DNA of 39,783 nucleotides from a virus. The notes under the pieces are model-generated. The model made no database searches, had not been told where the DNA came from, and saw only the letters and a list, made by a program, of their open reading frames with translations. Where the stretch lies: IMG/VR virus record IMGVR_UViG_3300042878_000226, positions 1 to 39,783 of that record, one strand, 5' to 3'. Below are positions 1-14,800 of this stretch, piece after piece. Position numbers and translations under genes: made by a program. Each line of letters starts with the position of its first letter. Position 1 is the stretch's first letter.

Positions 1-39
1 ATCTGGGTTACCCCATACACTAGTATGAACTGAATACAT
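1..39 (-). CDS. start of an unidentified gene (cut by window edge)
   Basis: An ATG at 39-37 opens a frame that stays open for 13 codons to the window edge (it begins MYSVHTSVWGNPD). On the minus strand it is preceded by an AAAGG ribosome-binding sequence at a good distance, and it starts one base after the stop of the upstream 192-codon gene, as usual in this tightly packed region. Too little is visible to suggest a function. Confidence 0.5.
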   Translation of the reverse strand, partial: MYSVHTSVWGNPD

Positions 40-40
40 A

Positions 41-619
41 TCACAAACCTTTCTCTACCCAAGTGGGCAGTCTTGCCATTATAAACAGGGATAGTTCGCT
101 ACCTCTGTCGAAGTTATACATACCACATACCACTGCCGTCCACATAGCAGGGTTAATAAAGATATCTTTAGCATCAGGTTTATACTTACGACGAATATGG
201 TTAACCCAATCTTGTAAGTCCATCAGTCTACGATACTCATCAAAGAATTCAGAGATCATATACTGTTGTACTGATAACCATACTGGATCAATGCTGTCCT
301 TATAGAAAGCATTACCAAACCCTGCTATCTTGTTACCCTCAAGTATATCCCTGTTAATCATATCTTCATCATAGAACTCGTATACATCACGAGCCTTTTC
401 TATAGGGGCGTGTAACCCATTAAGGGTTAGCACAGCAGAGGCTATAGCACTAGGCATACTGCCTGTTGCCTTGTAGCAATTGATGAATGCAACTGTACTG
501 AGACAGTTATCATTCATACTCAATAGCCTATGAGCCTCTAGCACTAGGTCTAATAGATGCTTGGTTCTAAAGTCCCCAGCATACCGTGCATAGGGGAGAT
601 CAATGTTTATTTGTGTCAT
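41..619 (-). CDS. hypothetical phage protein, 192 aa
   Basis: I do not recognise this protein. It is a soluble, mixed alpha/beta-looking 192-residue product with no signal peptide or membrane segment. Visible features are a run of aromatic and acidic residues (EFFDEYRRL) near residue 125 and a basic patch (HIRRKYK) near 142. The start is supported by an AAGGAA ribosome-binding sequence upstream of the ATG. It is the largest gene of the left-end accessory cluster apart from the Cys-rich 240-residue protein, and lies downstream of three small genes in the same direction. It uses a TGA stop, directly followed by the next gene. Confidence 0.75.
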   Translation of the reverse strand: MTQINIDLPYARYAGDFRTKHLLDLVLEAHRLLSMNDNCLSTVAFINCYKATGSMPSAIASAVLTLNGLHAPIEKARDVYEFYDEDMINRDILEGNKIAGFGNAFYKDSIDPVWLSVQQYMISEFFDEYRRLMDLQDWVNHIRRKYKPDAKDIFINPAMWTAVVCGMYNFDRGSELSLFIMARLPTWVEKGL

Positions 620-664
620 TATATTCCTTTTATATATGAACTTTAGTACTGAATTAAAACACTA

Positions 665-1024
665 CTACCACCACGAGGTGTAGTATACTGTGTTACCTCT
701 TTGTACCAATCGTTTAATCTTGTATGCTACATCTCTGTACTCAGATAACAATTGGCTATCTACATCCTTAAATTCATCAGAAGATATGTCGTTAAGGAAA
801 TCATCCATATCAAGGTCATCTAATACCACATAACTCTCTGTATTAAAAGGTAATGCAGGGTCTCCACCCTTATGCACAAATAATTTCTGCATCCAGTTAT
901 GGATCTCCCATTCCTTACGACCATACCACAATTCAATTGGATTATCTAATATGTGATCTTCGTTAAGTGGGAGATTATAAGGGTGAGATGCACCCTTACA
1001 GTTAATATACTGATCAAGACCCAT
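665..1024 (-). CDS. MGLD-family small phage protein, 119 aa
   Basis: The N-terminus MGLDQYINCK followed by a segment with WYGRKEWEIHNWMQKLFV (about residues 33-50) matches a family very common in phages and prophages. Members begin MGLDMYL or similar and carry a conserved 'W-R-K-x-x-x-I-H-x-W' element. I recall this family from many phage genomes; its function is not established. The C-terminal half is acidic (DDLDMDDFLNDI), as is usual for the family. A strong AAGGAGG site precedes the ATG. The start overlaps the end of the upstream 70-codon gene by 11 bases, which suggests coupled translation. The stop is TAG, so TAG is a normal stop codon in this genome. Confidence 0.8.
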   Translation of the reverse strand: MGLDQYINCKGASHPYNLPLNEDHILDNPIELWYGRKEWEIHNWMQKLFVHKGGDPALPFNTESYVVLDDLDMDDFLNDISSDEFKDVDSQLLSEYRDVAYKIKRLVQRGNTVYYTSWW

Positions 1025-1226
1025 TGGTCTCCTCCTTTAGTAGGCGTAGCCACACCAACAGGTTACCATATGCAACCCTCTTATCAATGTGTTGTTCTGT
1101 TTCATATGCAGTCTTTACTGCATCTATCAAAGGCATCCTGTTATGCAGTAACTGTGACAGTACAGTAGCCTGTCTTGTTTGTTTGATTATATCTTCTACA
1201 AACATATCTTCTTTGAATGTATTCAT
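1014..1226 (-). CDS. hypothetical small protein, 70 aa
   Basis: A short, mostly helical-looking protein (MNTFKEDMFVEDIIKQTRQA...) with no recognisable domain, signal peptide or membrane segment. An AAAGGAGA ribosome-binding sequence lies just upstream of the ATG. Its start overlaps the stop of the 78-codon gene upstream (ATGA at 1223-1226) and its end overlaps the start of the MGLD-family gene, so the three are probably one translationally coupled unit. Function unknown. Confidence 0.65.
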   Translation of the reverse strand: MNTFKEDMFVEDIIKQTRQATVLSQLLHNRMPLIDAVKTAYETEQHIDKRVAYGNLLVWLRLLKEETNGS

Positions 1227-1459
1227 ACTGTCTCCTTTAGTTTACTTGTTGACTCTCCAGTGAATGGACATATACTTTGTCCAACATATACTAAACAACC
1301 TGCTCTAGTTAAGTTACAGAACTTTTCATATGATACTTTTATTTTACCACCCTCATAGTCATCTAGTATATTTATATATGCGTGTGCATATGTAAATGCT
1401 AGGTCTCCTGTTGGGAATCCCCGTGCTATTACTGAACGATCATCGTGTACTAGATACAT
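1223..1459 (-). CDS. hypothetical small protein, 78 aa
   Basis: An unrecognised 78-residue protein beginning MYLVHDDRSVIARGFPTG. Its start has the ribosome-binding sequence AGGAGAATCAA immediately before the ATG, inside a leader of about 30 bases that recurs before two other small genes further right (starts at 4063 and 4539). That shared leader is the best sign the gene is real and co-regulated with them. It sits directly downstream of the tRNA pair and ends in an ATGA overlap with the next gene. Three cysteines (residues 48, 55, 63) are present without an obvious metal-binding spacing. Confidence 0.7.
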   Translation of the reverse strand: MYLVHDDRSVIARGFPTGDLAFTYAHAYINILDDYEGGKIKVSYEKFCNLTRAGCLVYVGQSICPFTGESTSKLKETV

Positions 1460-1490
1460 TTGATTCTCCTATAAAAGTTACCGAACAATG
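1460..1490 (-). promoter_or_regulatory. shared 5' leader with ribosome-binding site, copy 1
   Basis: On the minus strand a TGTTCGGTAACTTTTAT element leads into AGGAGAATCAA and the ATG at 1459. Nearly the same sequence precedes the gene starting at 4063, and the AGGAGAATCAA part precedes the gene starting at 4539. The core is an excellent ribosome-binding site; the upstream part could be an RNA leader or promoter element. Confidence 0.55.
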
Positions 1491-1501
1491 ATACACAATA
1501 G

Positions 1502-1576
1502 TAGGGCAGGTAGGAATCGAACCCACGTGAGGTCGGTTATATGCCGACACCTTTTACCAACATCAGGCACTACCCC
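1502..1576 (-). tRNA. tRNA, anticodon position reads TAT (Ile-like), atypical loop
   Basis: The minus strand folds into a standard cloverleaf of 75 nt. The acceptor GGGGTAG pairs with CTGCCCT (with G-U pairs at both ends of the helix region). The D stem is CCT/AGG, the anticodon stem GTCGG/CCGAC, the variable loop 5 nt, and the T stem GTGGG/CCTAC with loop TTCGATT; the discriminator is A. The anticodon loop is CATATAA, so positions 34-36 read TAT, which would decode AUA isoleucine. Position 33 is A instead of the almost universal U, so the identity is uncertain and the gene may be degenerate. CCA is not encoded. It lies 3 nt downstream of the second tRNA. Confidence 0.8.
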
Positions 1577-1579
1577 AAA

Positions 1580-1653
1580 CATCCCTAGTAGGACTTGAAC
1601 CTACAACCTACAGATTAGAAATCTATTGATCTATCCAGTTGATCTATAGGGAT
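1580..1653 (-). tRNA. tRNA-Arg(TCT)
   Basis: A clean 74-nt cloverleaf on the minus strand. Acceptor ATCCCTA pairs perfectly with TAGGGAT. The D stem is GATC/GATC, the anticodon stem ATAGA/TCTGT with loop TTTCTAA, and the T stem GTAGG/CCTAC with loop TTCAAGT; the discriminator is G. U33 is present and the anticodon is TCT, reading AGA/AGG arginine codons. Phages often carry this tRNA when AGA is rarer in the host than in the phage. It is probably co-transcribed with the adjacent tRNA. Confidence 0.93.
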
Positions 1654-1707
1654 TTAATATACATATCAGTATGAATATGTATAGAAATGTGTATTTATGT
1701 ATACACA

Positions 1708-2430
1708 TTATCCTTTCGATATAGAAAATCTTATGTCAGTTTTATTATCAACACACAATCTACATACCCCACAGGCACTGCCTAGTGTAGAGATTAGGGG
1801 TATAACACCCTTGTTTTCAGGACACATAGCACCTACCTTACCAGTGATAACCTTTAGTCGGATACCACTAGTCTCAAATGTATCCTCTAGGTATGCAAGT
1901 TTAATACCTATTGCTCGTAGACCGATACCAATAGACTCATTATCTCTATCGGTAGAGTAGTACAAGGATAGGTTATCAATACCTTGCAATATTCTGGCAC
2001 TAGATTCTACTCTAGTATATACCCAGAACTGTACTGTAGGGTGACGCTGTATTACTGTAGCCCACGCTGTGGTATACTCATCACTAAAGAAGTCACCATC
2101 CCAGTGGATGCGGAATATTTTATCTACACTAGGGTACTTGGCACAGTCCTTATTGAATGACTGTATCATAGCATCTAACAATGAGACCATAGTATTATAG
2201 TCGGCATCCTTTAGTAACAGCCAGTTATGTAACAGCAATGCCCTTACATTAGGGTACATCTTCTCTAGTCTACCAGCATAACACACTCTCTTACAAGTAG
2301 GAGTCTCACCCCTACAAGAGTATGCTGTACCACTAGGTAGACCAAAGGTATTCTGCGTAGCGGACTGCTCACCATTAGCAGTGACCCTATTAGTTACCTT
2401 CCTATCGTTTGATCTCTTTAGTTTATTCAT
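1708..2430 (-). CDS. Cys-rich phage protein, possibly GP88-like, 240 aa
   Basis: A 240-residue protein with an N-terminal cluster spaced C-x6-C-x3-C followed by YAGR (about residues 38-53, SCRGETPTCKRVCYAGR) and a C-terminal C-x2-C-x2-C cluster (CGVCRLC, about 219-225). Between them lie a W-D-G-D-F-F motif near residue 111 and a Y-S-T-D-R-D motif near 172. From memory this resembles the phage 'gene product 88' (GP88) family, which also begins with a leucine-proline segment followed by clustered cysteines and 'CYA'; no function is established. The cysteines suggest a metal or iron-sulfur site, which is inference. AAAGGAGAT precedes the ATG. It is the largest gene in this cluster and lies upstream of the tRNAs. 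Confidence 0.7.
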   Translation of the reverse strand: MNKLKRSNDRKVTNRVTANGEQSATQNTFGLPSGTAYSCRGETPTCKRVCYAGRLEKMYPNVRALLLHNWLLLKDADYNTMVSLLDAMIQSFNKDCAKYPSVDKIFRIHWDGDFFSDEYTTAWATVIQRHPTVQFWVYTRVESSARILQGIDNLSLYYSTDRDNESIGIGLRAIGIKLAYLEDTFETSGIRLKVITGKVGAMCPENKGVIPLISTLGSACGVCRLCVDNKTDIRFSISKG

Positions 2431-2449
2431 AGGTTACTTATCTCCTTTG

Positions 2450-2668
2450 CTATACGACTGCACCTTCAGCACTACATAGTAGGTCTTGTACTTGACTCAA
2501 CTTATTTGTAATATAAGATAGTTGATGTTGTAAATGTACAATCTTTTCTTCTAACCTAGCATTATCTATCTTCAATAGTTCTATAATGCTATCGTTAGTA
2601 GCATTCAACTCATCCTGAATAGTAATGATACTGCGTTGTGTTGCTATGATACTATCTTCTACACTCAT
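2450..2668 (-). CDS. small coiled-coil protein, 72 aa
   Basis: A 72-residue protein with heptad-like spacing of isoleucine and leucine through most of its length (IITIQDELNATNDSIIELLK, then ARLEEKIVHLQHQL), so a coiled coil is likely. No membrane segment or known domain is visible. The start overlaps the stop of the upstream 63-codon gene (ATGA at 2665-2668). The stop is TAG. Both this protein and its upstream neighbour look like small helical partners and may act together; this is inference. Confidence 0.65.
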   Translation of the reverse strand: MSVEDSIIATQRSIITIQDELNATNDSIIELLKIDNARLEEKIVHLQHQLSYITNKLSQVQDLLCSAEGAVV

Positions 2669-2856
2669 TGTTGTCCTGCTTTCATTATCTTTTCTTCTAA
2701 CAAGGTATTGACATACAATACCCCATTAAACACAGTAGCGTATGAATGAAACACATTAGCGTATGCCCTACTTAACTCTTGTTCTCTAGCAAGTTCTTTC
2801 TTACACTCGGCTAATAGGTCATTAGCCCTCTCTTGTGGTGTTCTATATTCTTCCAT
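2665..2856 (-). CDS. small helical protein, 63 aa
   Basis: I place the start at the ATG at 2856 (MEEYRTPQERAND...) because AAGGAGAATACA lies just before it; a longer frame beginning 11 codons upstream has no ribosome-binding sequence of its own. The product is charged and helical (LLAECKKELAREQELSRAYANVF), probably coiled coil, with no recognised domain. It is the first gene after a non-coding stretch of about 1 kb, so its promoter should lie to the right. A hairpin with 7-bp arms (GGTATTG/CAATACC, 2704-2722) sits within it. Confidence 0.65.
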   Translation of the reverse strand: MEEYRTPQERANDLLAECKKELAREQELSRAYANVFHSYATVFNGVLYVNTLLEEKIMKAGQQ

Positions 2857-2900
2857 TGTATTCTCCTTAAGAATTTTTCTACCGTTCATTAGGATATTGT

Positions 2901-2983
2901 TATCCCATAGGGTACACCTCTACAGTGTAACCTATGGGATACCCTAGTTTATAGATTAGTTATAACATAATCATCTAGGGTAT
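2901..2983. repeat. double-hairpin element, copy 1
   Basis: Hairpin A (2901-2941) has 17-nt arms, starting TATCCCATAGGGTACAC, around the loop CTCTACA with one mismatch. Its right arm runs into a second inverted repeat, ATACCCTAG (2939-2947) with CTAGGGTAT (2975-2983). The two hairpins share the GATA junction, so full formation of one competes with the other. Copies 2 and 3 lie at 3050-3116 and 4104-4167. Confidence 0.85.
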
Positions 2984-3049
2984 ACACCATTGAATATTGT
3001 AGAGTAGGGGATCAATCGTCATTGATCTAGTAATATCTCCCACTCTATA

Positions 3050-3116
3050 TATCCCATAGGGTACACCTCTACAGTGTAACCTATGGGATACCCTCGGTGT
3101 ACACCAAGGGTATCCC
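3050..3116. repeat. double-hairpin element, copy 2
   Basis: Hairpin A (3050-3090) is identical over all 41 bases to copy 1. It runs into hairpin B, GGGATACCC (3085-3093) with GGGTATCCC (3108-3116). The centre of B is the palindrome GGTGTACACC. The outer arms of B match copies 1 and 3 but the centre differs, so pairing is kept while sequence changes. Confidence 0.85.
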
Positions 3117-3289
3117 CTTACATAGCCACAATAATAATAACCCGTTTGCAAATCGCTGTTATTATATCGTTGACTGTATAGTATTGTAAGATACCACGCC
3201 ACTGATTAAGGACAGTATGCCACCCTATCTATTCTTGTTGGTATAGATACCAATTGTGAACTTTACCCTGCTATAGGTGAGCATAAGTT

Positions 3290-3441
3290 CAACGTACACA
3301 TACATACTTTCTTAACACCTATGTTAGTAAGGTAGTATGAAACAAACATAACAATACTTTTTTATAGAGATGTATAGAACAATACTCTTTACACTTTCTC
3401 ATACCTTTGTTAATGGAGATAGTGTGAAACCCTCATAACTA
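3290..3441. repeat. diverged tandem duplication in non-coding DNA
   Basis: Two adjacent segments of about 65 nt (roughly 3290-3352 and 3375-3441) align: each has ACTTTCT, then ACCTATGTTAGT or ACCTTTGTTAAT, then TAGTATGAAAC or TAGTGTGAAAC, then CATAAC. They have diverged but keep the same order and spacing. They may be paired promoter or protein-binding sites; no function is visible. Confidence 0.5.
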
Positions 3442-3886
3442 CACCCTATTTACGGGAGGATATAGGAACACCGTACTGTAGCAGGGAGAAGGAGATATGT
3501 ATGCATCCACAAATCCTTGTATACTACAGTATGTCCCTATCGTATACCCCGTAGGATATACGATAGACGCACTATGCTTAAGCATCTGTTTATACTGGCA
3601 TAGTCCAGTGTACTTATGGTAGCACAACCACAGTTATCCACACCCAAAGGTATGGACTAGCCGAAGCATTACTGTATTAGTTTTTTACTTGCTGATCTAA
3701 TAAGCAAGACTCTTTAGGAGAAAGTATTAAGGTATCCTATAGAATACATTACATAATAAGAGTGTTACTCTTAATAGGTAGTAGCACCTTTGTCTCACTA
3801 ATTATATTGTGAGAAGCGGACAAGAGGTTACCTAGCCTAGTGTATACATACACTATGGAATGTATCCTATAGGATACCTATGTTTT

Positions 3887-4063
3887 CTACAATTGATTCA
3901 CTACAACTTGAAGACTAGTTTTCATTCGTTTATGCAATTCAATTGCATTTAACACACTTTCATCAGGTGTTTCAATGCGTTGTAATCTAACAATAAATTC
4001 TTCATCTGTAATGTTACCATCATTGTAATCCCTAATTGCATTAACAAGAACAATATTATCCAT
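3887..4063 (-). CDS. small hypothetical protein, 58 aa
   Basis: A short gene of 58 codons (MDNIVLVNAIRDYNDGNITD... ending QVVVNQL) with a TAG stop. It is supported by a perfect AGGAGAATCAA ribosome-binding sequence and by a leader of about 30 bases shared with the gene starting at 1459. The product is acidic in its first half and helical-looking; no known domain. A hairpin with 8-bp arms and a one-base loop (ATGCAATT/AATTGCAT, 3932-3948) lies inside it. One copy of the double-hairpin element (4104-4167) sits just upstream, between this gene and the 51-codon gene, where it could control read-through. Confidence 0.7.
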   Translation of the reverse strand: MDNIVLVNAIRDYNDGNITDEEFIVRLQRIETPDESVLNAIELHKRMKTSLQVVVNQL

Positions 4064-4094
4064 TTGATTCTCCTAATAAAATTACTGAACATTG
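4064..4094 (-). promoter_or_regulatory. shared 5' leader with ribosome-binding site, copy 2
   Basis: The minus strand reads CAATGTTCAGTAATTTTATT then AGGAGAATCAA before the ATG at 4063. It matches copy 1 at about 26 of 31 positions. The double-hairpin element begins only ten bases further upstream, so a transcript from the right passes through that structure immediately before this leader. Confidence 0.55.
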
Positions 4095-4103
4095 GGATAG
4101 AGT

Positions 4104-4167
4104 TATCCCATAGGGTACACCTCTATAGTGTAACCTATGGGATACCCTAGGTAAACCTAGGGTATCC
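4104..4167. repeat. double-hairpin element, copy 3
   Basis: Hairpin A (4104-4144) differs from copies 1 and 2 by one loop base (CTCTATA). It is followed by the most perfect hairpin B: GGATACCCTAGGT (4140-4152), a 2-nt loop, then ACCTAGGGTATCC (4155-4167), 13 bp with no mismatch. It separates the 51-codon and 58-codon genes. No U-run follows it on either strand, so a simple intrinsic terminator is not the obvious reading. Confidence 0.85.
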
Positions 4168-4171
4168 TTGT

Positions 4172-4327
4172 TCACCTTAATCGGTAGTAAGGTGCAAACA
4201 TTTTTAATAGAACATTTTGATCTCTATTAGAGATACCATTCCTCCGCATCATTGCTTTAGTTTTAACTACTCTATCAGGAGTAGTAGTATTAAGCAACTG
4301 TCTCTTGATAGACTCAAAGTCTATCAA
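4172..4327 (-). CDS. possible small protein with TTG start, 51 aa
   Basis: A 51-codon frame (MIDFESIKRQLLNTTTPDRV..., ending YYRLR) starts at a TTG that overlaps the TGA stop of the 71-codon gene upstream as TTGA, mirroring the ATGA overlaps used elsewhere in the window. A GAGGTG ribosome-binding sequence lies 4 bases before the TTG. The product is basic, with a helix-turn-like, Arg/Lys-rich centre (VVKTKAMMRRNGIS). The TTG lies in the arm of a perfect 10-bp hairpin with a CAA loop (4305-4327), which could hide the start. No homology is recognised, so it may be a chance frame, although the coupling and ribosome-binding site argue for a gene. Confidence 0.45.
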   Translation of the reverse strand: MIDFESIKRQLLNTTTPDRVVKTKAMMRRNGISNRDQNVLLKMFAPYYRLR

Positions 4328-4539
4328 AGTTCACCTCTATTAAAGTGTTCAATTTGTTCTCTAACAAATTCATTCCAAGCGATGTAATGAATGCCACTTT
4401 GTTCCTTGGCTTCTGCCAAGGATGCAAAGTAATAAGTTTCATTATCACCATCGTGTGTGAATGACCAACGACCATCACCTTCATTGGTGATGGGGAACAT
4501 CTTAACATTATCAACAGTTGAAACTGAATAATTAAACAT
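4324..4539 (-). CDS. small hypothetical protein, 71 aa
   Basis: A 71-residue protein (MFNYSVSTVDNVKMFPITNE...) with a compact, acidic, beta-then-alpha appearance: a strand-rich first half (GRWSFTHDGDNETYYF) and a helical C-terminal half (WNEFVREQIEHFN). The start has the AGGAGAATCAA leader shared with the genes starting at 1459 and 4063. Three perfect hairpins lie in the coding sequence: 4351-4370 (AATTTGTT/AACAAATT), 4403-4422 (TCCTTGGC/GCCAAGGA) and 4472-4493 (CCATCACC/GGTGATGG). No function is recognised. It follows a terminator, so it probably has its own promoter between 4540 and 4612. Confidence 0.7.
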   Translation of the reverse strand: MFNYSVSTVDNVKMFPITNEGDGRWSFTHDGDNETYYFASLAEAKEQSGIHYIAWNEFVREQIEHFNRGEL

Positions 4540-4560
4540 TTGATTCTCCTAATAGAATAA
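4540..4560 (-). promoter_or_regulatory. shared ribosome-binding leader, copy 3
   Basis: The minus strand reads TTATTCTATTAGGAGAATCAA immediately before the ATG at 4539. Only the 3' half of the leader seen in copies 1 and 2 is kept here, which marks ATTAGGAGAATCAA as the conserved core. Confidence 0.5.
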
Positions 4561-4612
4561 ATACTAAACTAAACACAAACCACATTACCATCAAACAATG
4601 ATAATAATGTAT

Positions 4613-4653
4613 AAAAAAAGAAAAAAGCAAGGGCGAGTGTGCAGTCCTCGCCC
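4613..4653 (-). terminator. rho-independent terminator
   Basis: On the minus strand GGGCGAG (4653-4647) pairs with CTCGCCC (4637-4631) around a 9-nt loop. After a TTGC spacer comes a T-rich tract of 14 bases with a single C (4626-4613). This is a textbook intrinsic terminator just after the 116-codon gene, and it ends transcription coming from the structural genes or from that gene. Confidence 0.85.
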
Positions 4654-4657
4654 CGCT

Positions 4658-4943
4658 GTGATCCCTATGGGATCACTTGAACAGATCAGCAAGTGAGGTT
4701 GCTTTAGCAACCTTAGTCACTTTCACTTCCTTGCGGGGCGTTGCTTTAGCAACGGCTTGTATAACTGGAACAGTTATAGATCCCGTGAAGTGAGGTGCTT
4801 TCTCACTACTTCGCTCTTTGGCAAGCCAAAGAGCAAAGCCAACACTAATTTCACTTTCACTTGGGTTCTGTTCAAACAGTTTGAACAGAACAGAAACATC
4901 GTGCTTGGTTATCTTAAGATAACCACCGACCGCAGGAGCGGTC
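4658..4943. repeat. chain of hairpins inside a coding gene
   Basis: Nine hairpins follow one another with little space between. They are 4658-4676 (GTGATCCC/GGGATCAC), 4691-4722 (AAGTGA/TCACTT around GGTTGC/GCAACC), 4739-4754 (CGTTGC/GCAACG), 4760-4778 (TATAACTG/CAGTTATA) and 4787-4812 (GAAGTGAG/CTCACTACTTC, one bulge). The rest are 4813-4834 (GCTCTTTGGC/GCCAAAGAGC), 4865-4891 (GTTCTGTTCAAA/TTTGAACAGAAC, 12 bp), 4906-4925 (a perfect 20-base palindrome centred on CTTAAG) and 4928-4943 (GACCGC/GCGGTC). Arm sequences are mostly unrelated, so this is not a dispersed repeat family. Confidence 0.9.
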
Positions 4944-5023
4944 TCCTTTGCGTCTTCCTTGCGCAACCAACCTGCGATACTTGAGCGAGTTGTTTTCTTA
5001 AACGATGAGAAAGGTGATAACAT
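4673..5023 (-). CDS. hypothetical basic protein encoded by a hairpin-dense gene, 116 aa
   Basis: A 116-residue protein (MLSPFSSFKKTTRSSIAGWL...) with a TAGGAGA ribosome-binding sequence before the ATG and an intrinsic terminator just after its stop, so the gene looks real. The N-terminal 90 residues could be one small fold. The C-terminal 30 residues are a Lys/Ala/Val-rich tail with two VAKAT copies (about residues 93 and 105) ending in SLADLFK, like the flexible tail plus tip of some nucleic-acid-binding proteins (inference). I do not recognise the family. The oddity is at nucleotide level: nearly every few codons fall in a perfect inverted repeat, including the one spanning the stop codon, with hairpins in different codon phases. 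Confidence 0.75.
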   Translation of the reverse strand: MLSPFSSFKKTTRSSIAGWLRKEDAKETAPAVGGYLKITKHDVSVLFKLFEQNPSESEISVGFALWLAKERSSEKAPHFTGSITVPVIQAVAKATPRKEVKVTKVAKATSLADLFK

Positions 5024-5118
5024 TGTGCGAGTCTCCTAGAAAGTGTGAATGCAGAAGCCACAATGGCAACTGCTATAACCATATCGCCGAGCAGAAAATC
5101 GGTGGAAAAGCCGAATAG

Positions 5119-5142
5119 TTCCCCTAAAGGGGAAGATTTTTT
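5119..5142 (+). terminator. terminator-like hairpin facing the plus strand
   Basis: On the plus strand TTCCCC (5119-5124), loop TAAA, GGGGAA (5129-5134), then GATTTTTTG. This has the form of an intrinsic terminator for rightward transcription, although every gene in the window runs leftward. No U-run follows on the minus strand. It may stop antisense or early rightward transcripts, or belong to the surrounding GC-rich structure. Confidence 0.5.
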
Positions 5143-5293
5143 GCCGACCGCCGAGACCCCCCCCCCCCTCTTACCCGTGTGTGCGTGTGTGACTGCGTGA
5201 TGCGCCTAGGCGGGCACGGGGGGGCGGGCGCACACGAAGCGGGAGCGTACCCCCTCGTAAATCTTTGACCCCTAAGTCGATTTATAAGTCAAG
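5143..5293. other. GC-rich non-coding island with C12 and G7 runs
   Basis: This stretch between the 93-codon and 116-codon genes has no gene that I can support and is far richer in G and C than its surroundings. It contains 12 consecutive C (5157-5168), GT-rich DNA (GTGTGTGCGTGTGTG), the palindrome CGCCTAGGCG (5203-5212), 7 consecutive G (5218-5224) and CCCGTG/CACGGG arms. It could be a control or processing site, or contain a G-quadruplex on the minus strand. The homopolymer lengths could also be sequencing errors. Confidence 0.6.
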
Positions 5294-5575
5294 TTACCAT
5301 TTAACCTTATCAGCCCAATAGGCAGCACTTAGCTTCCCCTTGGCAATGTTCTGGGCATGCCGTGCCTTGAAGGATTTTCTCTTAGCCTTCATACGGTCAG
5401 ACTCTCCAGCCTTGGGAGCACCCGCAGTGGATGCACCTTGTTCGCCAAAGCGGATTGTTTTGATTGTAGTACCTGACTTAGCAACTACGACATGAGACTT
5501 CTTAGGATGGCTGGGGGTCTTCTTAGGTTGATTGAAACCTTTGACACCAGCCCGACTGAGACGTGAATCTTTCAT
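5294..5575 (-). CDS. small basic phage protein resembling DUF6321, 93 aa
   Basis: The pattern SRAGVKGFNQPKKTP near the start, the central VVVAKSGTTIKTIRFGEQG, and the end KRKSFKARHAQNIAKGKLSA followed by AYWADKVKW match a family of short basic phage proteins that I recall as DUF6321. Members share the 'SRAG..GFN.PK.TP.HP.KSHVV', 'TIRFGQQG' and 'SFKARH..NI.KGK.SAAYWA..VKW' blocks. The function is unknown. The high Lys/Arg content suggests contact with nucleic acid or a packaged role (inference). Length agrees with the family. It is the first gene after the giant 3888-codon gene, behind a terminator-like repeat cluster. Confidence 0.75.
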   Translation of the reverse strand: MKDSRLSRAGVKGFNQPKKTPSHPKKSHVVVAKSGTTIKTIRFGEQGASTAGAPKAGESDRMKAKRKSFKARHAQNIAKGKLSAAYWADKVKW

Positions 5576-5703: not shown

Positions 5704-5796
5704 AACTATAGGTTAACTTAAGGTTAACCTAAGGGTAACTTAAACAACAACAACTTACAAAAACCTATAGGTTAACCTAAGGTATAACCTATAGTT
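5704..5796. repeat. interleaved GGTTAACC/CCTATAGG repeat cluster
   Basis: The cluster has long-range 12-bp arms, AACTATAGGTTA (5704-5715) and TAACCTATAGTT (5785-5796). Between them lie repeated CTATAGGTTAAC, AAGGTTAACCTAAGG and AACCTATAGGTT palindromes separated by an unstructured CAACAACAA spacer. Several mutually exclusive hairpins are possible. It lies directly downstream of the giant gene, and its right half works as a terminator candidate (next entry). Confidence 0.75.
5757..5796 (-). terminator. candidate terminator after the giant virion gene
   Basis: On the minus strand CTATAGGTTA (5794-5785) pairs with TAACCTATAG (5774-5765) around a 10-base loop. It is followed by GTTTTTG (T run at 5763-5759). 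It lies 58 bases past the stop of the 3888-codon gene. The stem is AT-rich and the T run short, so termination may be only partial, letting some transcripts reach the 93-codon gene. Confidence 0.55.
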
Positions 5797-5853
5797 TATC
5801 TATAGCCCCAACTATGGGTAATCTACTATATTGGTCATTTCCTATTTGTGGTC

Positions 5854-8800
5854 TTACATTGGGGGTGTGGGTGTGTAACTTGGATTGTCCAACAGTTTCC
5901 CAAGTCTTTCACTGACCCCACTGTTTGGCTTAGAAGGTGTCACAGGTGGAACATATTGTTTTACCTGACGACCCATCTCTGGTCTCTGGGCTGCCTTGAG
6001 AGCTGCTGACTGAGGCATGGTCTGTGTTGTTACAGGTGCTGCCACAGGTGACTGAGGAGCTGCTTTGCTGCCTCCACGGAAACCACCACTACCACCACGT
6101 TGCTGACTGAGGTACCGATAAGGCTTCTTCTGTAATCCATCAATGATGAACTGAGCTGTGTGTTTATCATCAAGGTCCATTTGTTCTTCTAAGATTCTAA
6201 CAGGCAACATCTGAGGTGATTTATTAATAAAATGTCCTGGAACTTTTAATAGTCCTTTAGCTACAAGTTTACTGTCACCCTCCATACTACCATCAATAAT
6301 ATCTCCCGAAGCATCTTTAACTGTATTTAACAAACTTGCAACAGAGTTGATACCAACATTAGGTGAACCACCACCTAGGCTTGTTAAAGATTTAATTAAC
6401 TGATCACTTCCTCGTTGCGCTCCTCCTGTCATGTACTTAATTTCTCTTAAGCTACCTTCAAAAACTGGTGACAAAGAACCCATCACAGGCATTCTTGTTG
6501 CAATACGTAAAACAAATTCGGATGGATCATTCTCTAACTCAGCCATAATATCTTCCATCTCTCGACCAGACATCCATTCCCGTAGGAGACTGATAACTGT
6601 TTCAAGGACAGCTACAGAAATAATACCACCAAACATTAAACCAACTGCACCACGTTCAGGTGCGTTCAACATAACATCATCAAACCAAGAACGCATATAA
6701 CTAGTTAGAGAACCTAGTAACTTACCAACCTCGCTAGAATGAAATGCACTTAGTGTTTGGTTTAATCCAAAGCCATGTGTAACTGTTCTCTTACGAACAA
6801 GACCTTCAATACCATACTGGAAATCTGAAGCTGCTGCTCTATATAGCTCAGGATCAATTGGGGGATCCTTCATGTTCTTAAGATCTCGGTAGACCATATG
6901 AAGATCCCTGAAGTCCAGAACACCATCTAAGGCATTGGCTGCATTCATACCATACATCATTGCCTCTAGCTTAGCAGGACTGTCAAGACCAACCTTGATT
7001 GCTTTGAGAGCCAGTAATGAATCAAGTCCTCCAGCTTGTCGAGCAAGACTTTTGTGCATCTTCCAAAGCTTACGTTCTTCTGCTGCGGACTTAAAGCTAC
7101 CTTCCAACAATGCTTGCATAGCAGCACGGTTCTCAGGCAATGCCCGTAAACGCAGGAACTCTTTTAGTTTTCCGTCTCTCATCATTGCAGTCAGGTCTCT
7201 AACGTGCCTTGCCTTTCCATAGTATCGAGCAAGGTTTGTTCCGTCAGTCACTCCACCCGCCAGCACAACTGTCTGTCCTGTCTTTTCTAAAAAGTCTGCA
7301 GTATTTCCAGTCAGTCCAGTGCTGTTGCGCCCACTGTTCCAGATCGCTCGATATGGTTTACTTGTATCTGAATCAAAATCAACATCACCAGTTCCTTCAT
7401 TAAAATGGGTTGAGTGATCTTTAGAGTATTCTTCTAAACTTGTAATAAGATCTCCAACTTCAAGCCGTGTAGCAGAATCTCCTCTATCCCAGAATTTAAG
7501 TAAATTATTTAAATACTTAAACATACCAACAGGAACACTGAGTCCTTTTGTACTTGGAATATTTTTAAGAATTTCCATTACAGTTTCTGGTGCTTGAGAT
7601 AGTCCCCAACCTAAACCACTAGATGTTGAAACTAAATTTCTTGTAGCACGTGAAACATTAGCAATGATTCTAGATTCCGCTCCAAGTCTTGGTATTGATC
7701 CATTATACTGAGCATACTGCCAGATCAACCTAGAAAAACCAGAGGCAACATCGTCGTGGTTTGCTTTTTTATCTACGGCTTTAATACTATCGAAATCCTC
7801 AATATGTTTATGTACCTTAGCTTCTAAAAGCCTAAAGAAATCTTTAGGTCTTAGTCCAGTTGATCCTGCTAGTTGATCTATGCTTTCTTGAAAGATAAGA
7901 TCAAACATTCGGTATTTTGCAAAGTTCTGATATGCTGAATGGAGATCTGTTCTAGCAATATTAAACAACTCAGAGTCAGATAATAGCTCCTCTACTGAAA
8001 AATTTCTAACAGTAGAAAAATAATCATCATGGTGATTTCTATCTAGGACAGGTCTATTATCAACCATAGTTGTTTTACTGTAGTGATATTTTCCTTGTTT
8101 TGTTTTAAAGTCCAACAGTTCTTTCATCTCAACTTCAATTAAAGATTTACCATTAAACTCTTGTTTCCATTGAGAAGTAACATGTTGTTGTTCTCCTTTA
8201 ACAGTATCACGATACTTTACAAGGTCTGCTTCAGAAAGATCTTCTATTGTTTTAGGAATTCTATAAATCTTTGCTTCATTTCCTTTTTCAATTAAAAACC
8301 AATCCTTACCTTTAATTCCAAGTTGTTTAGAAAAATCAAGGTTAGCATTACTAGCGACAGAGTATTCATAAAGTTTTGATAGACTATCTGAATCTAACAT
8401 AGAACCTGATGTAAGTGCAAACTTTCGATTCTTAGTATAGAATGTATTTTGTTTTTCAATATTAAGAATACCCATAGTAATCAATGTATTTACATCAAGC
8501 ATATCATCAGCAAGTTTAGATTCTTTTCTTGTATTAACTATACTTGCCATTAATGTTTTATATCTTTGATTATCTGATAGTATAGACATTAACTTTTCAA
8601 CATGAACTTGAATTGGAAGATAATCTTCTGCTTCAACTAGATCACCATTCTTATCTACAACGGTTCTCCATTGTGTTTTTTCTTCTAATTTAAGAACCTC
8701 TGTATTTAAATGAATCAATTCTAATCTATAGTTCTTTAGAATACTTTCTAACTTAGAGAAATCTTTTTCACCAAATGCAGCAGTAAGTTCAGAACTAGTT

Positions 8801-11800
8801 GGAGATGTTTTATTTTTCCAAGCTTGAATTTGAATCTTTTGTAATAACTTTTTTTCTTCTGGAGTCATCTTTAAAGCAATAGCTTCTGCAGACAATGTAT
8901 GATGGATTCGTGTTAGGTTTGCTGTAAACATAACCGCATCTTGCTTTGCCTTAGCTGCTGACTTAATAGGAATTCCTTCTGGTGATACTAGTTGACCTGT
9001 CATTGCCCTAGAGTCATCCATGAACATTGAAAGAAAGCGCACAGTTAAGTGCATACTACGAAGAGTTGATCCCATATTAGATCCCATCTGTATAAAGTTT
9101 ACAGCCTTTGACATAAACAAACGCCATCTATTTCTATTACTTCGTTCACTACCACCAAAGATTAAAGAAATAAAGTTGTTCTGTCTTAACAACATATTAG
9201 AAGAGTTATTTACTTTACTAGCTATAGTATCAATACGATCACTATTTGTTAATTCTACTTCAGGAACTAATTCTTCTTCGGGTGCCCTAGTTATCTTTGA
9301 ATTTGCAACTCCAGGAAGTGGTGTATCTTTTGGTTTAACTTGCTCTCTACTACGAAGCTCTTCAGCTGTATAAGGTATTAAAGGATTTCCAGATGTATCT
9401 CTAGCATCTAATACACTCTTTACTTCCTTACTAACAGTGCCTAAAGAAAATTTACCATTACGCATAATTACAGAATCATGTGTTACTGGTGGAATAAATT
9501 TAGTATTATTAATTGATACCATATCAGCAGCAATTGCATAAATCTCTTTCATTGATTTACGAACTCTAAGTTGGTTCTTTATAGTAAGCCCATCTTCTAC
9601 CGCTAAAAGAATATCTACTTGTTTCCAGAATTTTTGTATTATTTTTTCTGACCCAAAGATTGTTCTATTGTGGTGCATTATTGATGCATTCAATTCTACA
9701 AAGTCTATAAACACAGACTTGAAACTTTCTGGGATACCTGTGCCAAGTTTTTTTCTAGCGTCTTTTGATAAAGACCTAACAAACTTTTTAAACAAAGCTG
9801 TGAAAGAAGTTGCATCAACTCCACCATCTCGTAAAGATTCATTACTTTCAATTAAACCATTAGCTATTCTATCGTGCTCACTAATGATAGGAATATGTGA
9901 TCCTTCAGGCAAGTCAGTAACCTCTACAGCTTTTGGTTGAATTACAGGAACAGTAGTTCCATCTGGTGCAGTTCCCTTACCTGCAGGTTTAGGTTTACTT
10001 GAAGGTGCAACTGCTGCAGCAGTCGTGGGTGTAGTAACAGTAGGTGTTGTAGTTTTAGCAGGAGCAGCTTTAGGTTTTGCTTTAGCTTCTGTTTTAGGTG
10101 CAACCTTAGCTTCTGTCTTAGGTGCAACCTTAGGTTCAACAAACCGACTGATACCCCCATAAGACCATTGGTGTTGATCAAAGATAAAGTTCATTACTGT
10201 ACGTCCATCTTTTGGATCAATTAACTTGACACCTTCTATATCTAAATGTTCCATTAAAGACATAAATTGTTTGATTGCTTCTTTTTCTTTTCCCTCTTCA
10301 AATAAACGTGTTAAAATATCTACAGCTTGTGCAACATTTATTTTCTTTAACGAGTCTTTAGGTAAGCTTAATAAGATACCTTCCATTGTTTTAAAGGATG
10401 CAAAGAATAGTTTTCCTGCTACCCCTGTAGCTTTTCCCCATGCTCTAAAGTCACCAGTAATAAATTTAATAGCTCTCTTAGGGGTTGAAGAAGTAAATTG
10501 TCCGTTTGGATTTCTTCCTTGTTGAACAACACGCTCAGCTACAACAGGAGTAACATGTGGTGTTAAGCCTGTTACAGGAGTTGTTTTTCCATCCACTTGA
10601 ATAACAGCTGTGACAGGTTCTTCTGATTCCTTAGGAGAAATAACTGGTTGAGACGTTTCTTCTGCAGGATCTGTAGTATCAATGTGTTGTTCTAGTTCAT
10701 CAGTATTGTTTTGTTCTTCTGTTGCTCTTTGAGAATCCTGTAGAATTTCGTTTTCTGTTTTAGTTTTAAAAGCTAGATCACTATCTAGTTCAGTTTTCTT
10801 ACGCATGTTTTCTACAACCATAGAAGCAAGAACTTGATTGCCATCTAAATCATCTATAGTCAATCCTTCTGGTAAGAATAACTCAGTAAATTTTTTAACA
10901 TTTTCTTTAAAGAATCTATGAGCATCTTTAACATTGTTTACAGTTTTATTGTACCCAACATCACGACCAAGAGTAACAATCTCAGCATATTCTTTTCCTT
11001 CAATAATATTACGAACAACAAATTCCATCCAACCTTTGTCTTTTTTATCAAATAAAGAGTATTTATTTTCTTCTGCTAAGTCTATAATAAAACGAAACGC
11101 TTTAGATTTTCTATCTAACTTTGCAGAATACTCTTTATCTTCTCCTCTAATAGTACTAACTAACTGAGGAGGCTCCCCTTCTACATTACTAGCTTCACCC
11201 TTTAAGTCATATTTTGTACCATAAGCTTTTACAAATTGTTGGTATAACATGGATCCACGTTTCTTTTCGGATTCCATCCACTGTTCATTTGTTCCATCAT
11301 ACGTTAATTCCTTAACGTCTGTATAGTAAGAAGAGTTAATAATTTCATTTTCTGTTTCTATAAATAAACCCCAATTAGATCCTGTAAGACCAGCTCTAGT
11401 TTCTTGTGGTGTAAGTTCTTTAATAATAATCTGCCATGCACTGTTTGCAAGATAGTTTAATAAATGATTACGTGTTCTAATTGTTCCATCTTTCCGTACT
11501 AAAGTAGCATCACCAAGGGCTTGTGCTGTATTCATAGCTGTTAAAATAGCATCAAGAGATGTCTGAGAGTTTTTAAAACCAAGAGATGAAAACTTTTTCT
11601 TTAAACGAGATCCAATTTGTCTAGCAACATCAAACCTTTCTTTCCAAAACCTATTAAGAGATTCACCAGTTAAAGGATCATTTGGACGTAGTTTAGAGTT
11701 ATTTAAATCATCGTCTTCTCTTGCGTTTATCAACTCGTTTATTTTTGATAAGTCAGATGGTTCAAACTTTGCATCTGCTATCTCTAAGTCATTTACTAAT

Positions 11801-14800
11801 TGAGCGTGTTCATGCACATCTAATATAGCTAACTTTCTTTCTACTAAGTTTAATCTACGAATTCCATTAACACCGACAGTTAATTTACCACTATCAAGAG
11901 CTTTAACAATACGCCTGATAATTGTTTGGTGGTAGTTAACAAGCTCTCCCGTACCAGTTCCTCTAATAGTTTCATCTGTAGTTCCAATTAAACTTGGATC
12001 AGTTATTATGTTTTCGTCTGGTACTGTACTGTATAATGCTTTCTGTTCCTGTGCTTTAATTTGTTCTGGCGTTAAGGGTACCACAGGTTCTTCTTTAACC
12101 ACAGGAATTTTTCTTGTGGTAGTAATAGATACCTCAGGCTTTTTAATGTTACTCAGTAAAGCTGTAAATAACTTATCATCAACTCCAAACATTGTTTGAA
12201 TGTTGTTTTTAAATTCAGCATTTGTTTGTGGAGAATCTGAAATCTCATTACTAAGAGTAGCTAATCGTCTAACTGCTGTAGTTTTAGTGTATGCAACTGG
12301 TAGTTTAGCTTTAGGGGCAAACATTAAACCTGTTGCAGTTTCATTAAAAGAAACATTGTTTATGGATCGTGCTTGTTTTGGATCTAAGATTACATAATGA
12401 TCATTATTAGTAACAGTAACTTGACCAGAATAATCATTGTATTGAAAACTAGGAGCAAAGATACCATCATATCCCATACGCTGTAATAATCTATGAGCTA
12501 TGATTCTAGCCTCTGCTTGAACTGGAACAGTGATAGATGCTCTACTACTGTGTTCTCGCATGATATCATTTAATTTGTATGGATCATTTCCAGCACTGTC
12601 TAGTAGTTCCTGTGATATTAAATTTAATTTTTGTTCTTCCCATATGCCAATTTTTTCATATGATTTTTGCCATGTTCCGTCTTGTAACTCTAAAGCTTCT
12701 TTTAAATTATCAGGTAAGTCTCTTACTGCGTGTAATCTATTATTTTGTAGGTTTTTTAACCAAGTAGGATCAATTTCTATTTTATTTTCAGTAATAAACT
12801 TTTCAAGTAAATAAGAAATTTGATAATTAAATACATGCCGTGTACTAGAGAAAGGAACTGATATTCTCCTTGGATCAGTCTTTAATTTTTTAAGATACCC
12901 TAACGTATCTACAATAAAAGGTTTTTTTATATTTACATAAACATCTGTATTATAGTTTCCGTATTTAGAACCATCCTTACCATTATTAGTGAAATAAACA
13001 CCAGCTCCTAAAGCTTCATCACCACCAGTTAATCCAATTTTAAATCTAATATCAGATGGAAAATCTTCATAAGGTATTGGCAATGGTGAGCTATGGCGAA
13101 GAGCCATTGGTTCAGTAGAGTTTGGATAAGTAACAACTGTATCTTTAAACATCTTATCAAACTTAGTTTCTTTATTTAAAAGAAGTTCTTTAACCTTTTT
13201 TAATCTCTTACCTTGTCCTTGTGACTCCATAGCTTTCATTAAATCTGTTAATAAAAGTAATGGCATATCTTTATTATCTTCAATACTACCCCTATCAAGT
13301 ACAGTTATTACTCCACCAACGTTATCTGTATTAGGAATAAAACCAACGTTTTCTTTAGGATCTTTTACAACCCGAACAGTAAACTTATTAATATCAATAC
13401 TAGTAGCTGATTTCAAAAGATTAGTTGCTTCACGAACTCGTTGTGGTAATCTGGGTAATTCGTTTGTGTTTGTACTTGTTAATAAACTATCCAAAGTATC
13501 TCTAACTGTATCCATAACAATATAGTTACCAACATTTGTTGGTTTTCGTTGAGGTGCAAATAAATCCCCCATTTCTAACCTATATTCTGCAGCGTCTTGA
13601 TCAGCTGCAGTTTCTAATAAGAAATTTATTGATTGAATTCCTTGGAAGCTGCCAAAAGATATATCTAAATAAGATGGTGTAACTACCAGTTGTTCTGGTG
13701 TTAAGTTCTTATGGTATTCTCGTAAAGCAATGATCTGATCTTTTCTATTAAGAGATGAGTCCATAATAATTGGATTGTTTGGTACAGCCCTATACCCATT
13801 TTCTTTCATAGATTGTATGTGAATATCTACAGTAGATGCTAGATAGCGTTTGTTAATTTCCATATAAGATTGAAATATCTGGGCAAACTTTGCTCTGTTC
13901 TTTACAGTAATACCATCTCGTTTAACATTAAGATAAGCATCAAGTCGGATTGGATCTACAGTCCCATCGGCATGAACTGTTAATGCATGTAAAGATTGTA
14001 CTTCATCTTTAGTAAACAACATATCCTTTAGGGATGGTTCTGTTTTTGTTAGCTTAGCAGAAATCTTGTCATTCAATACTTTAGTAAATGCAACTTTTTC
14101 AGCTGGTGACAATTTCTTTCCAGTTGCAGGGAATTGTTTTAATGCTGCAGTAACTCGGTTCTGATAAGTAATGCGTGTCATCAAAGGACCTGAGTTTTTC
14201 TCAAGCTGACTGAGGACATTTTTTACAGCCGTGTACATCTCATCTTCAGCATCAACCTTACTTAGCTTGAGAGAATTAAACACCTCAACCAAGGTTGTAC
14301 CTACACTGAGGAAACGGTGAAGTAGGGTCTTCTCTACAGCATTTGAATTAGCGGTCTTAAGGAAGACTGCAAGCTTGACCTCATCAATCATCATCTTGGC
14401 TTTGACTTGAGCCATTAGTTCTTGAGTATTACCTGCAAGATAGTACTTGTTAAAGTTATCAGTACCAAGGACTTGTTGAGCTGCATCTAAAAACGCCTGT
14501 TCTGATGTAAACAGTTTACGCATATCCATTAAAGATGAACCATAAGCATGAAGTTCCTCAACATGACCAATCTCATGGAGAACATTCTCTACTCTAGTAT
14601 TACCTGCAACTGAGGTATCCAACTTACCAATCTTAATATCCCCAGCTAGTGAGGTACTTGCACGATCATCTGCTCTAGTTCCCATGTCGCTGATCTTGGC
14701 AGCTACGTTAGAGGTAAAGGATGTATTGACAGTAGAGGCTAGGATGATACGCCGATCAACATCCGTAATGTGACCTAGTGTAACCAACTGATCCAAACGG

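Follow-up and report, generated by a model that had tools for sequence, protein, structure and literature searches.

Perfect hairpins crowd the probable early region at the left end of a T7-like phage

Introduction

What keeps short perfect hairpins crowded into a stretch of phage DNA, much of which codes for protein? The question is raised by positions 2890–5150, here called the hairpin island, of IMG/VR record IMGVR_UViG_3300042878_000226. The whole record, 39,783 nt, was analyzed and is called the window. A sequence-only reading of this DNA had counted more than 25 hairpins in the island, spread across coding and non-coding DNA, and had suggested structured transcripts, host defence, control of translation or a replication process that perfects palindromes.

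The island is a composite. It contains a ribozyme candidate, 41-nt dyads, a terminator-like hairpin, and unique perfect hairpins within orphan early genes. In some phages, saturation of the early genes with hairpins looks like a genuine property that has gone largely undescribed. A coding function is normally at odds with perfect hairpins, of which T7, like two further podophages, has fewer than chance would give. Phages having hairpins in nearly every early gene, together with compensating synonymous changes, must have either some gain from them or an unusual replication or mutation process.

Hairpin Density in the Island

Inverted repeats (IRs) were counted if they were perfect, with arms of at least 7 and loops of at most 10, and were compared with 100 dinucleotide-preserving shuffles. 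At the level of genes, codons were permuted among identical amino acids or synonymous codons were resampled. The island has 27 such IRs, against a shuffle mean of 1.98 (standard deviation 1.3, maximum 7). There are 15 versus 0.48 when the arms are at least 8, and 6 versus 0.06 when they are at least 10. The excess is about 13 times chance and extends into the small genes. The count given by the sequence-only reading is thereby confirmed, and so is its remark that the structural genes are not comparably dense: the structural blocks of the window have 0.7–1.1 IRs per kb, which is about the shuffle level. The density is above the shuffles and the codon-preserving controls alike and exceeds that of the rest of the genome. 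Window 1–2889 has 9 IRs versus 2.45 in shuffles.

Most of the individual hairpins listed earlier are placed correctly to 1–2 nt, the hairpin at 3790–3823 being imperfect rather than perfect. Coding and non-coding DNA are both occupied, as had been said, with the coding half the denser (17 merged hairpins in 1150 bp versus 6 in 991 bp). Folding z-scores are strong across most of the coding half and at the dyads. No strand-specific tetraloops or G·U stems were found in the island. Even spacing of hairpins, a sign of tiling, was not found in the window, and the only hint of it comes from three phages, related to one another, of the second group described below.

The island carries four early open reading frames (ORFs; Table 1), all with a positive coding score in the annotated frame only, while 2890–3880 scores negative in all six frames. 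The excess of hairpins is clearest in the 116-aa first gene. Nine hairpins with arms of at least 6 fall within 4673–4943, versus 2.2 when codons are permuted and 1.9 when synonymous codons are resampled (p 0.002), and another at 4658–4676 spans the stop. The 71-aa ORF has three hairpins with arms of at least 8 versus 0.66 codon-permuted (p 0.012). The 51-aa ORF has four with arms of at least 7 versus 0.66 (p 0.002, codon control); besides the one at its start it holds those at 4266–4285, 4220–4234 and 4173–4194. In the 58-aa ORF the excess is not significant under codon controls. Homologues of these proteins, sought so that covariation could be read within the window, were not found among viral contigs, annotated phages or bacterial genomes.

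The position of the island in the phage genome comes from a near-complete relative, IMGVR_UViG_3300034168_000130 (G001; 60,949 bp). The window has a terminase of the T7 type (phrog_38), and its shared late genes are up to 97% identical to those of G001, which extends past the window's late genes on the other side. G001 encodes a T7-type RNA polymerase (RNAP), a primase-helicase, a DNA polymerase and a single-stranded-DNA-binding protein, and its ends are near-identical over 227 bp carrying a poly-G tract. Mapped onto G001 by sequence comparison, the island falls just within the end of a T7-like phage genome, and is placed as its left-end, first-transcribed early region.

Covarying Hairpins in a Second Phage Group

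A scan for IR density took in about 160 loci in the vicinity of two conserved genes that neighbour each other. The loci closest to the GP88 gene (PF17338) of the window are conspicuous, with 78 IRs versus 10 expected in L019, 65 versus 6.9 in L014, and 56 versus 6.2 in L006. The second group, consisting of G002 and its relatives, is a different phage group that has a phrog_38 terminase as well, and the GP88 gene and a DUF932-type gene are common to it and G001. In G002, density peaks at 8–11 per kb over a block of small genes at 10.5–16.8 kb. Since these genes are small and non-structural, we infer that the block is the early region. Its hairpins exceed the codon-permuted control in 10 of 12 genes, with 43 observed versus about 4.2 expected over the 12, roughly 10-fold pooled. 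Because comparable peaks occur in other phages, the density of the island is rare and not unique. Among reference podophages, T7 (7 observed versus 20 expected), Limnohabitans phage (13 versus 35) and ICBM2 (15 versus 25) are depleted, and SP6 (33 versus 24) and HTVC025P (53 versus 46) are near neutral.

Some other contigs deserve mention on their own account. Two actinobacteriophage ends with a GP88 gene (L211 and L212) have about three times more hairpins than shuffles. In another phage lineage, L159 (1933–2891) and L147 (61–816) have series of related AGTCT..AGACT / ACTCT..AGAGT hairpins, which are probably a repeated regulatory element. The 82688-bp contig of L009 (G004) is likely two joined phage genomes, as it has one terminase gene and, about 41 kb away, another that differs from it.

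Conservation in the second group was assessed in a seven-genome alignment. Of 144 hairpin centres, 68 are retained in at least four genomes. Double changes that preserve pairing occur at 2.6–2.8 times the level of slid controls, at every divergence, and compensatory changes with both bases at third codon positions number 83 versus 14. Stems with loops of 3–5 nt are enriched 5–11-fold: there are 271 with 3 nt, 213 with 4 nt and 263 with 5 nt, compared to about 20–30 at long loops and 32–54 at loops of 0–1. The loop-closing pair is C-G in 151 cases versus G-C in 45, an asymmetry not shared by the inner stem pairs (190:221) or by control regions (17 versus 19). The top triloops are CAAAG and CGAAG, with CGTAG also among the commonest, and GNRA and UNCG tetraloops are essentially absent. 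G·U is not favoured over A·C (62 versus 90 cells in the alignment; 1162 versus 1275). Given the covariation, the 3–5 nt loops, the C-G closing, the absence of RNA tetraloops and the lack of a G·U preference, these behave as genuine hairpins tuned to be stable in single strands, and they suggest that selection has favoured the character of DNA hairpins over that of RNA. The promoter hairpins of phage N4 extrude at physiological supercoiling if their loop-closing pair is C-G and the loop has G and A as its end bases (PMC4496689), and the cGNAg-type triloops of the second group fit that rule.

Two other sources were considered for the second group. Selection for RNA structure, resembling genome-scale ordered RNA structure, gained no support; the G·U tolerance on the transcribed strand that it predicts is not seen in those 62 versus 90 cells. 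Nor did template-switch (quasi-palindrome) products, for which clusters of change on one arm are expected, the one-arm fractions being 0.63/0.38/0.21 versus 0.56/0.30/0.22 at random positions. Since the arms change no more one-sidedly than random positions do, these hairpins do not come mainly from multi-base template switching. The palindrome-perfecting replication first suggested for the island predicts bursts of change in one arm, and its prediction fails here in the same way.

Ribozyme Candidate and Repeated Dyads

Besides the in-gene hairpins, the island has discrete elements. One of the hairpins already listed, 3538–3565, proves to be the P3 stem of a candidate pistol self-cleaving ribozyme (fold z = −5.8). 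P3 is lengthened by a U·G pair to 3537–3566, giving 14 pairs with a UACG cap. A P1 of ACUGG/CCAGU and a pseudoknot of ACUAUG/CAUAGU, from the P1 loop to the P2–P3 junction, are readable in the sequence. Like known pistol ribozymes, the candidate has the conserved core AUAAA / UUAAGC / GCGU in addition to P1, the pseudoknot and a long P3. Unlike them, its P2 has only about 3 pairs (AUG/CAU) and its cleavage junction is GG or GA where GU is usual. The identity of the junction is variable in pistol ribozymes, while its length is fixed (PMC4604425). Two contigs related through their RNAP (49% identity), L187 and L191, have a pistol match in a similar 1-kb early non-coding gap. These matches, at 6239–6300 in L187 and 6607–6668 in L191, score 42.9 bits and are followed by a tRNA-like 3′ end. 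A pistol-type ribozyme in the window would cut the early transcript. In T7, processing of the early transcript is done by host RNase III. The candidates here and in the two RNAP relatives would, if active, represent a ribozyme-based route for processing early transcripts.

The 41-nt dyad (beta) occurs in three copies with 17-bp arms, a 7-nt loop and one conserved Y·C mismatch. The mismatch is identical in all six full copies of the window phage and G001, unlike a palindrome undergoing perfection. Each dyad has a second IR before it, which in two cases is a tight hairpin (alpha) that shares part of its sequence with the dyad's 5′ arm. The module formed by two dyads and the spacer between them recurs in G001 with 99.5% identity over 193 bp, at the opposite end of the non-coding interval. 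Because the module is so nearly identical at a different place, when the remaining matching non-coding pieces are mostly 75–95% identical, it has moved or been exchanged recently between the two phages. Therefore, the statement that the hairpins are not a mobile repeat family holds for those within genes and not for the dyad module. Similarly, the arms within genes are mostly unique, as had been noted, but the three dyads are one family, and several further non-coding hairpins share TATCCC/GGGATA words.

The repeated double hairpin, alpha plus dyad, probably acts in processing or translation of the early transcript. Several other identities for the dyad were dropped. It was at first taken for an SP6-like promoter, until the phage's own probable promoter motif emerged. 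That motif, predicted from the sequence, is probably GTTGGGGCTAWAGA, with sites at window 5799–5812(−) and G001 6285, 11880, 19328 and 60178, and it is conserved in L184. The dyad shares just CTATAGA with it, which also speaks against the dyad as a promoter for a T7-type phage RNAP. A mobile palindrome like repetitive extragenic palindromes or miniature inverted-repeat transposable elements does not fit, since the only repeated element is the dyad, in 3 copies, and the in-gene hairpins are unique.

Explanations for the In-Gene Hairpins

The observations to be explained are the density and its location, the excess over codon controls in the large early gene, the match to the ribozyme model and the covariation of the other group. 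We propose two layers. The first, which is fairly well supported, would be the discrete elements: the pistol-type ribozyme, the terminator-like hairpin past the first gene and the repeated double hairpins. These elements look like functional RNA, the double hairpin lying 5′ of two early genes, and to that extent the sequence-only reading is partly supported. In the second layer, the unique in-gene hairpins would be retained because the short single strands of the region must fold on themselves. Selection would then act on DNA-type hairpins (Watson–Crick only, 3–5 nt loops, C-G closing, cGNAg-type triloops) within protein-coding limits. We speculate that early phage DNA folds independently of strand when single-stranded or negatively supercoiled, and that once folded it may be hidden from, or presented to, host or phage factors. 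The island agrees with the second group in place, density and coding context, and extending the mechanism of that group to the window's in-gene hairpins is possible, if somewhat short of probable. That the early genes of some double-stranded DNA phages are kept saturated with short DNA-type hairpins, as a selected strand-independent folding layer in coding DNA, is a tentative proposal about which we keep considerable doubt. If it is true, such a layer could make early DNA resistant to host factors that are guided by nucleic acids or bind single strands, or it could form cruciforms upon supercoiling.

A number of observations weigh against this two-layered explanation. In the island, the folding excess is the same size on the sense and antisense strands, the loop spectrum is broad without a sharp peak at 3–5 nt, and C-G versus G-C closing is only 3 versus 1. 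Of its 21 short-loop stems, 12 close through the loop (p 0.002), as compared to 115 of 419 in the second group. The early genes of G001 are without comparable in-gene density. Many second-group hairpins are lost between relatives, and their arms evolve barely slower than their surroundings (ratio 0.80, confidence interval 0.64–1.02), so selection is weak at best.

In a rival explanation the hairpins arose by mutation, with replication or repair of transient hairpins copying arm onto arm in dispensable early genes that tolerate the result, no function being needed. Arms that are Watson–Crick-only, strand-symmetric and mostly unrelated in sequence, turnover between relatives and weak constraint all favour it. 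Such copying is known from yeast genes and ribosomal RNA genes (PMC8604942, PMC8794818) and has been proposed for the coding palindromes of nematomorphs (PMC6649704), and correction of single bases in an arm could still operate. We nevertheless think a mutational origin, though still in contention, rather unlikely, since multi-base changes limited to one arm do not exceed their frequency at random positions, the C-G closing preference and the third-position compensation require extra assumptions, and the coding half of the window is denser than the non-coding half. Selection at the level of RNA, under which heavy structure in early mRNAs would serve their stability, their resistance to nucleases or the control of their translation, gains from the folding z-scores, from the discrete elements of the first layer, from the G·U pair and UACG loop of P3, and from the G·U-compatible changes that separate the alpha-type hairpins of the window phage and G001. 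The single-mismatch stems of the island lean the same way and against the DNA-type reading (G·U 4, A·C 1), in a sample too small for a decision between DNA and RNA. As a general account it meets the equal excess on the antisense strand and a second group that tolerates G·U no better than A·C and lacks RNA tetraloops, and we consider it improbable, though it too stays in contention. An artefact of assembly or amplification, or an accident of composition, could be imagined because this contig's in-gene hairpins are absent from all other records searched. It is very improbable: the excess survives the dinucleotide, codon-permuted and synonymous controls, the frames are open with good coding scores, the dyad module is independently present in G001, and the phenomenon recurs across many independent contigs.

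Features of the Region and Neighbouring Genes

The features are collected in Table 1. A consensus terminator scan with a loop limit of 8 did not return the hairpin at 4631–4653. The terminal repeats of G001 (1–227 and 60723–60949) are the same except for a poly-G of 14 versus 15, and at about 5158 in the window lies a poly-C tract that corresponds to it. The GTTAACC cluster lies between the giant late gene and ORF 5294–5575 and is present in G001 too. The product of that late gene, 5854–17520(−), is a virion protein of 3888 aa whose sole match, to ART-PolyVal, is weak (E 2e-4) and falls short of the family cut-off. The neighbouring gene, 17520–22628, has a phage lysozyme domain.

Table 1. Features in and near the hairpin island (window coordinates; SD, Shine–Dalgarno sequence).
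Feature	Positions	Strand	Remarks
Non-coding interval of about 1 kb with hairpins, ribozyme candidate and dyads	2857–3886	−	Partly collinear with G001 1841–2963
Hairpin island, placed as left-end early region	2890–5150	genes all −	27 versus 1.98 IRs; position deduced from G001
41-nt dyad copy	2901–2941	−	45 nt ahead of start of gene 2665–2856
Module of dyad, 107-nt spacer and dyad	2901–3083	−	Almost the same in G001
41-nt dyad, second copy	3050–3090	−	
Alpha hairpin ahead of dyad 3050–3090	3085–3116	−	Similar G001 hairpin (2857–2882), two pairs exchanged
Candidate pistol self-cleaving ribozyme	3537–3609	−	Rfam RF02679 match at 3546–3609, 39.3 bits versus gathering 34.5
Early ORF, 58 aa	3887–4063	−	SD AGGAGAATCAA; coding score; one hairpin, 3932–3948
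41-nt dyad, third copy	4104–4144	−	41 nt ahead of start of gene 3887–4063
Alpha hairpin GGATACCCTAGGT/ACCTAGGGTATCC	4140–4167	−	Overlaps 5′ arm of dyad
Early ORF, 51 aa	4172–4327	−	TTG start inside hairpin 4305–4327; coding score positive in frame
Early ORF, 71 aa	4324–4539	−	SD AGGAGAATCAA; coding score; hairpins 4351–4370, 4403–4422, 4472–4493
Terminator-like hairpin GGGCGAG..CTCGCCC, then T-rich tract, just past first gene	4620–4653	−	Sequence reading; hairpin 4631–4653
First early gene, orphan, 116 aa	4673–5023	−	SD and ATG; coding score positive in this frame only
Probable end of the genome (direct terminal repeat), including a poly-C/G tract	5050–5270		Window 5247–5284 matches G001 60707–60744
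GTTAACC palindrome cluster after last late gene	5709–5797	−	
Putative phage-RNAP promoter GTTGGGGCTATAGA	5799–5812	−	Motif also at the starts of genes in G001 and L184

Two hairpins outside the window belong here as well. Just upstream of the RNAP start in G001 (as locus L178, 8152–8202) is a perfect palindrome with 15-bp arms and an overlapping third complementary arm, resembling the alternative hairpins of an attenuator. An intergenic hairpin with 17-bp arms, followed by a T-rich stretch, is found at L178 13115–13153 and L192 3141–3179; the loop region alone differs between these close relatives, and the hairpin is a probable terminator or processing site.

Comparison with Known Systems

Pervasive hairpins in coding sequence are characteristic of the genome-scale ordered RNA structure of RNA viruses. 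The present case differs from it in being a double-stranded DNA phage, in being confined to the early region and, in the second group, in having no G·U preference. A search of the open-licence literature (subscription papers and preprints being outside it) found no description of a double-stranded DNA phage whose early region is saturated with hairpins that are short, covarying and DNA-type. Nothing close turned up there on phage coding regions rich in hairpins or on palindromes resistant to guides. Coding DNA is already known to contain hairpins, both as coding palindromes (PMC6649704) and as products of template switching (PMC8604942, PMC8794818).

The double hairpins resemble the extended start-associated sequence (SAS) of cluster K mycobacteriophages, which has 17-bp imperfect inverted repeats with a short spacer, repeated upstream of non-structural genes (PMC3203893). 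The window dyad differs from it in sequence, in overlapping a second hairpin and in sitting 41–45 nt before the start. The identification was rejected because the 13-bp SAS GGGATAGGAGCCC is absent at the starts; those after dyads read TTAAGGAGAATACAATG and TTAGGAGAATCAAATG.

The N4 virion RNAP promoters, too, are hairpins of DNA in a podovirus, placed at its left end, and the second group shares their cGNAg-type triloops (PMC4496689). In N4, however, three near-identical promoter hairpins are read by the virion RNAP, whereas those of the window have mostly unique arms and lie within genes, and G001 has a T7-type RNAP with a different promoter motif. Promoter hairpins of the N4 type were rejected for the island, there being no shared conserved sequence and the in-gene arms being mostly unique. 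An N4-type virion RNAP within the 3888-aa protein was rejected too, as sequence-level searches gave no RNAP match (PHROGs, Pfam, PDB sequences) and no T7-type motif B pattern.

The closest likenesses in coding DNA are of two kinds. Homogenization of arms by template switching produces short inverted repeats whose arms change together (PMC8604942, PMC8794818), but the multi-base one-arm changes expected of it are not in excess in the phages. The nematomorph mitochondrial palindromes are, like the phage hairpins, perfect inverted repeats in functional coding sequence, with positions partly shared between species and few imperfect copies (PMC6649704). Their arms average 43 bp, whereas those of the phages are 7–13 bp with short loops and are mostly limited to the early genes of double-stranded DNA phages.

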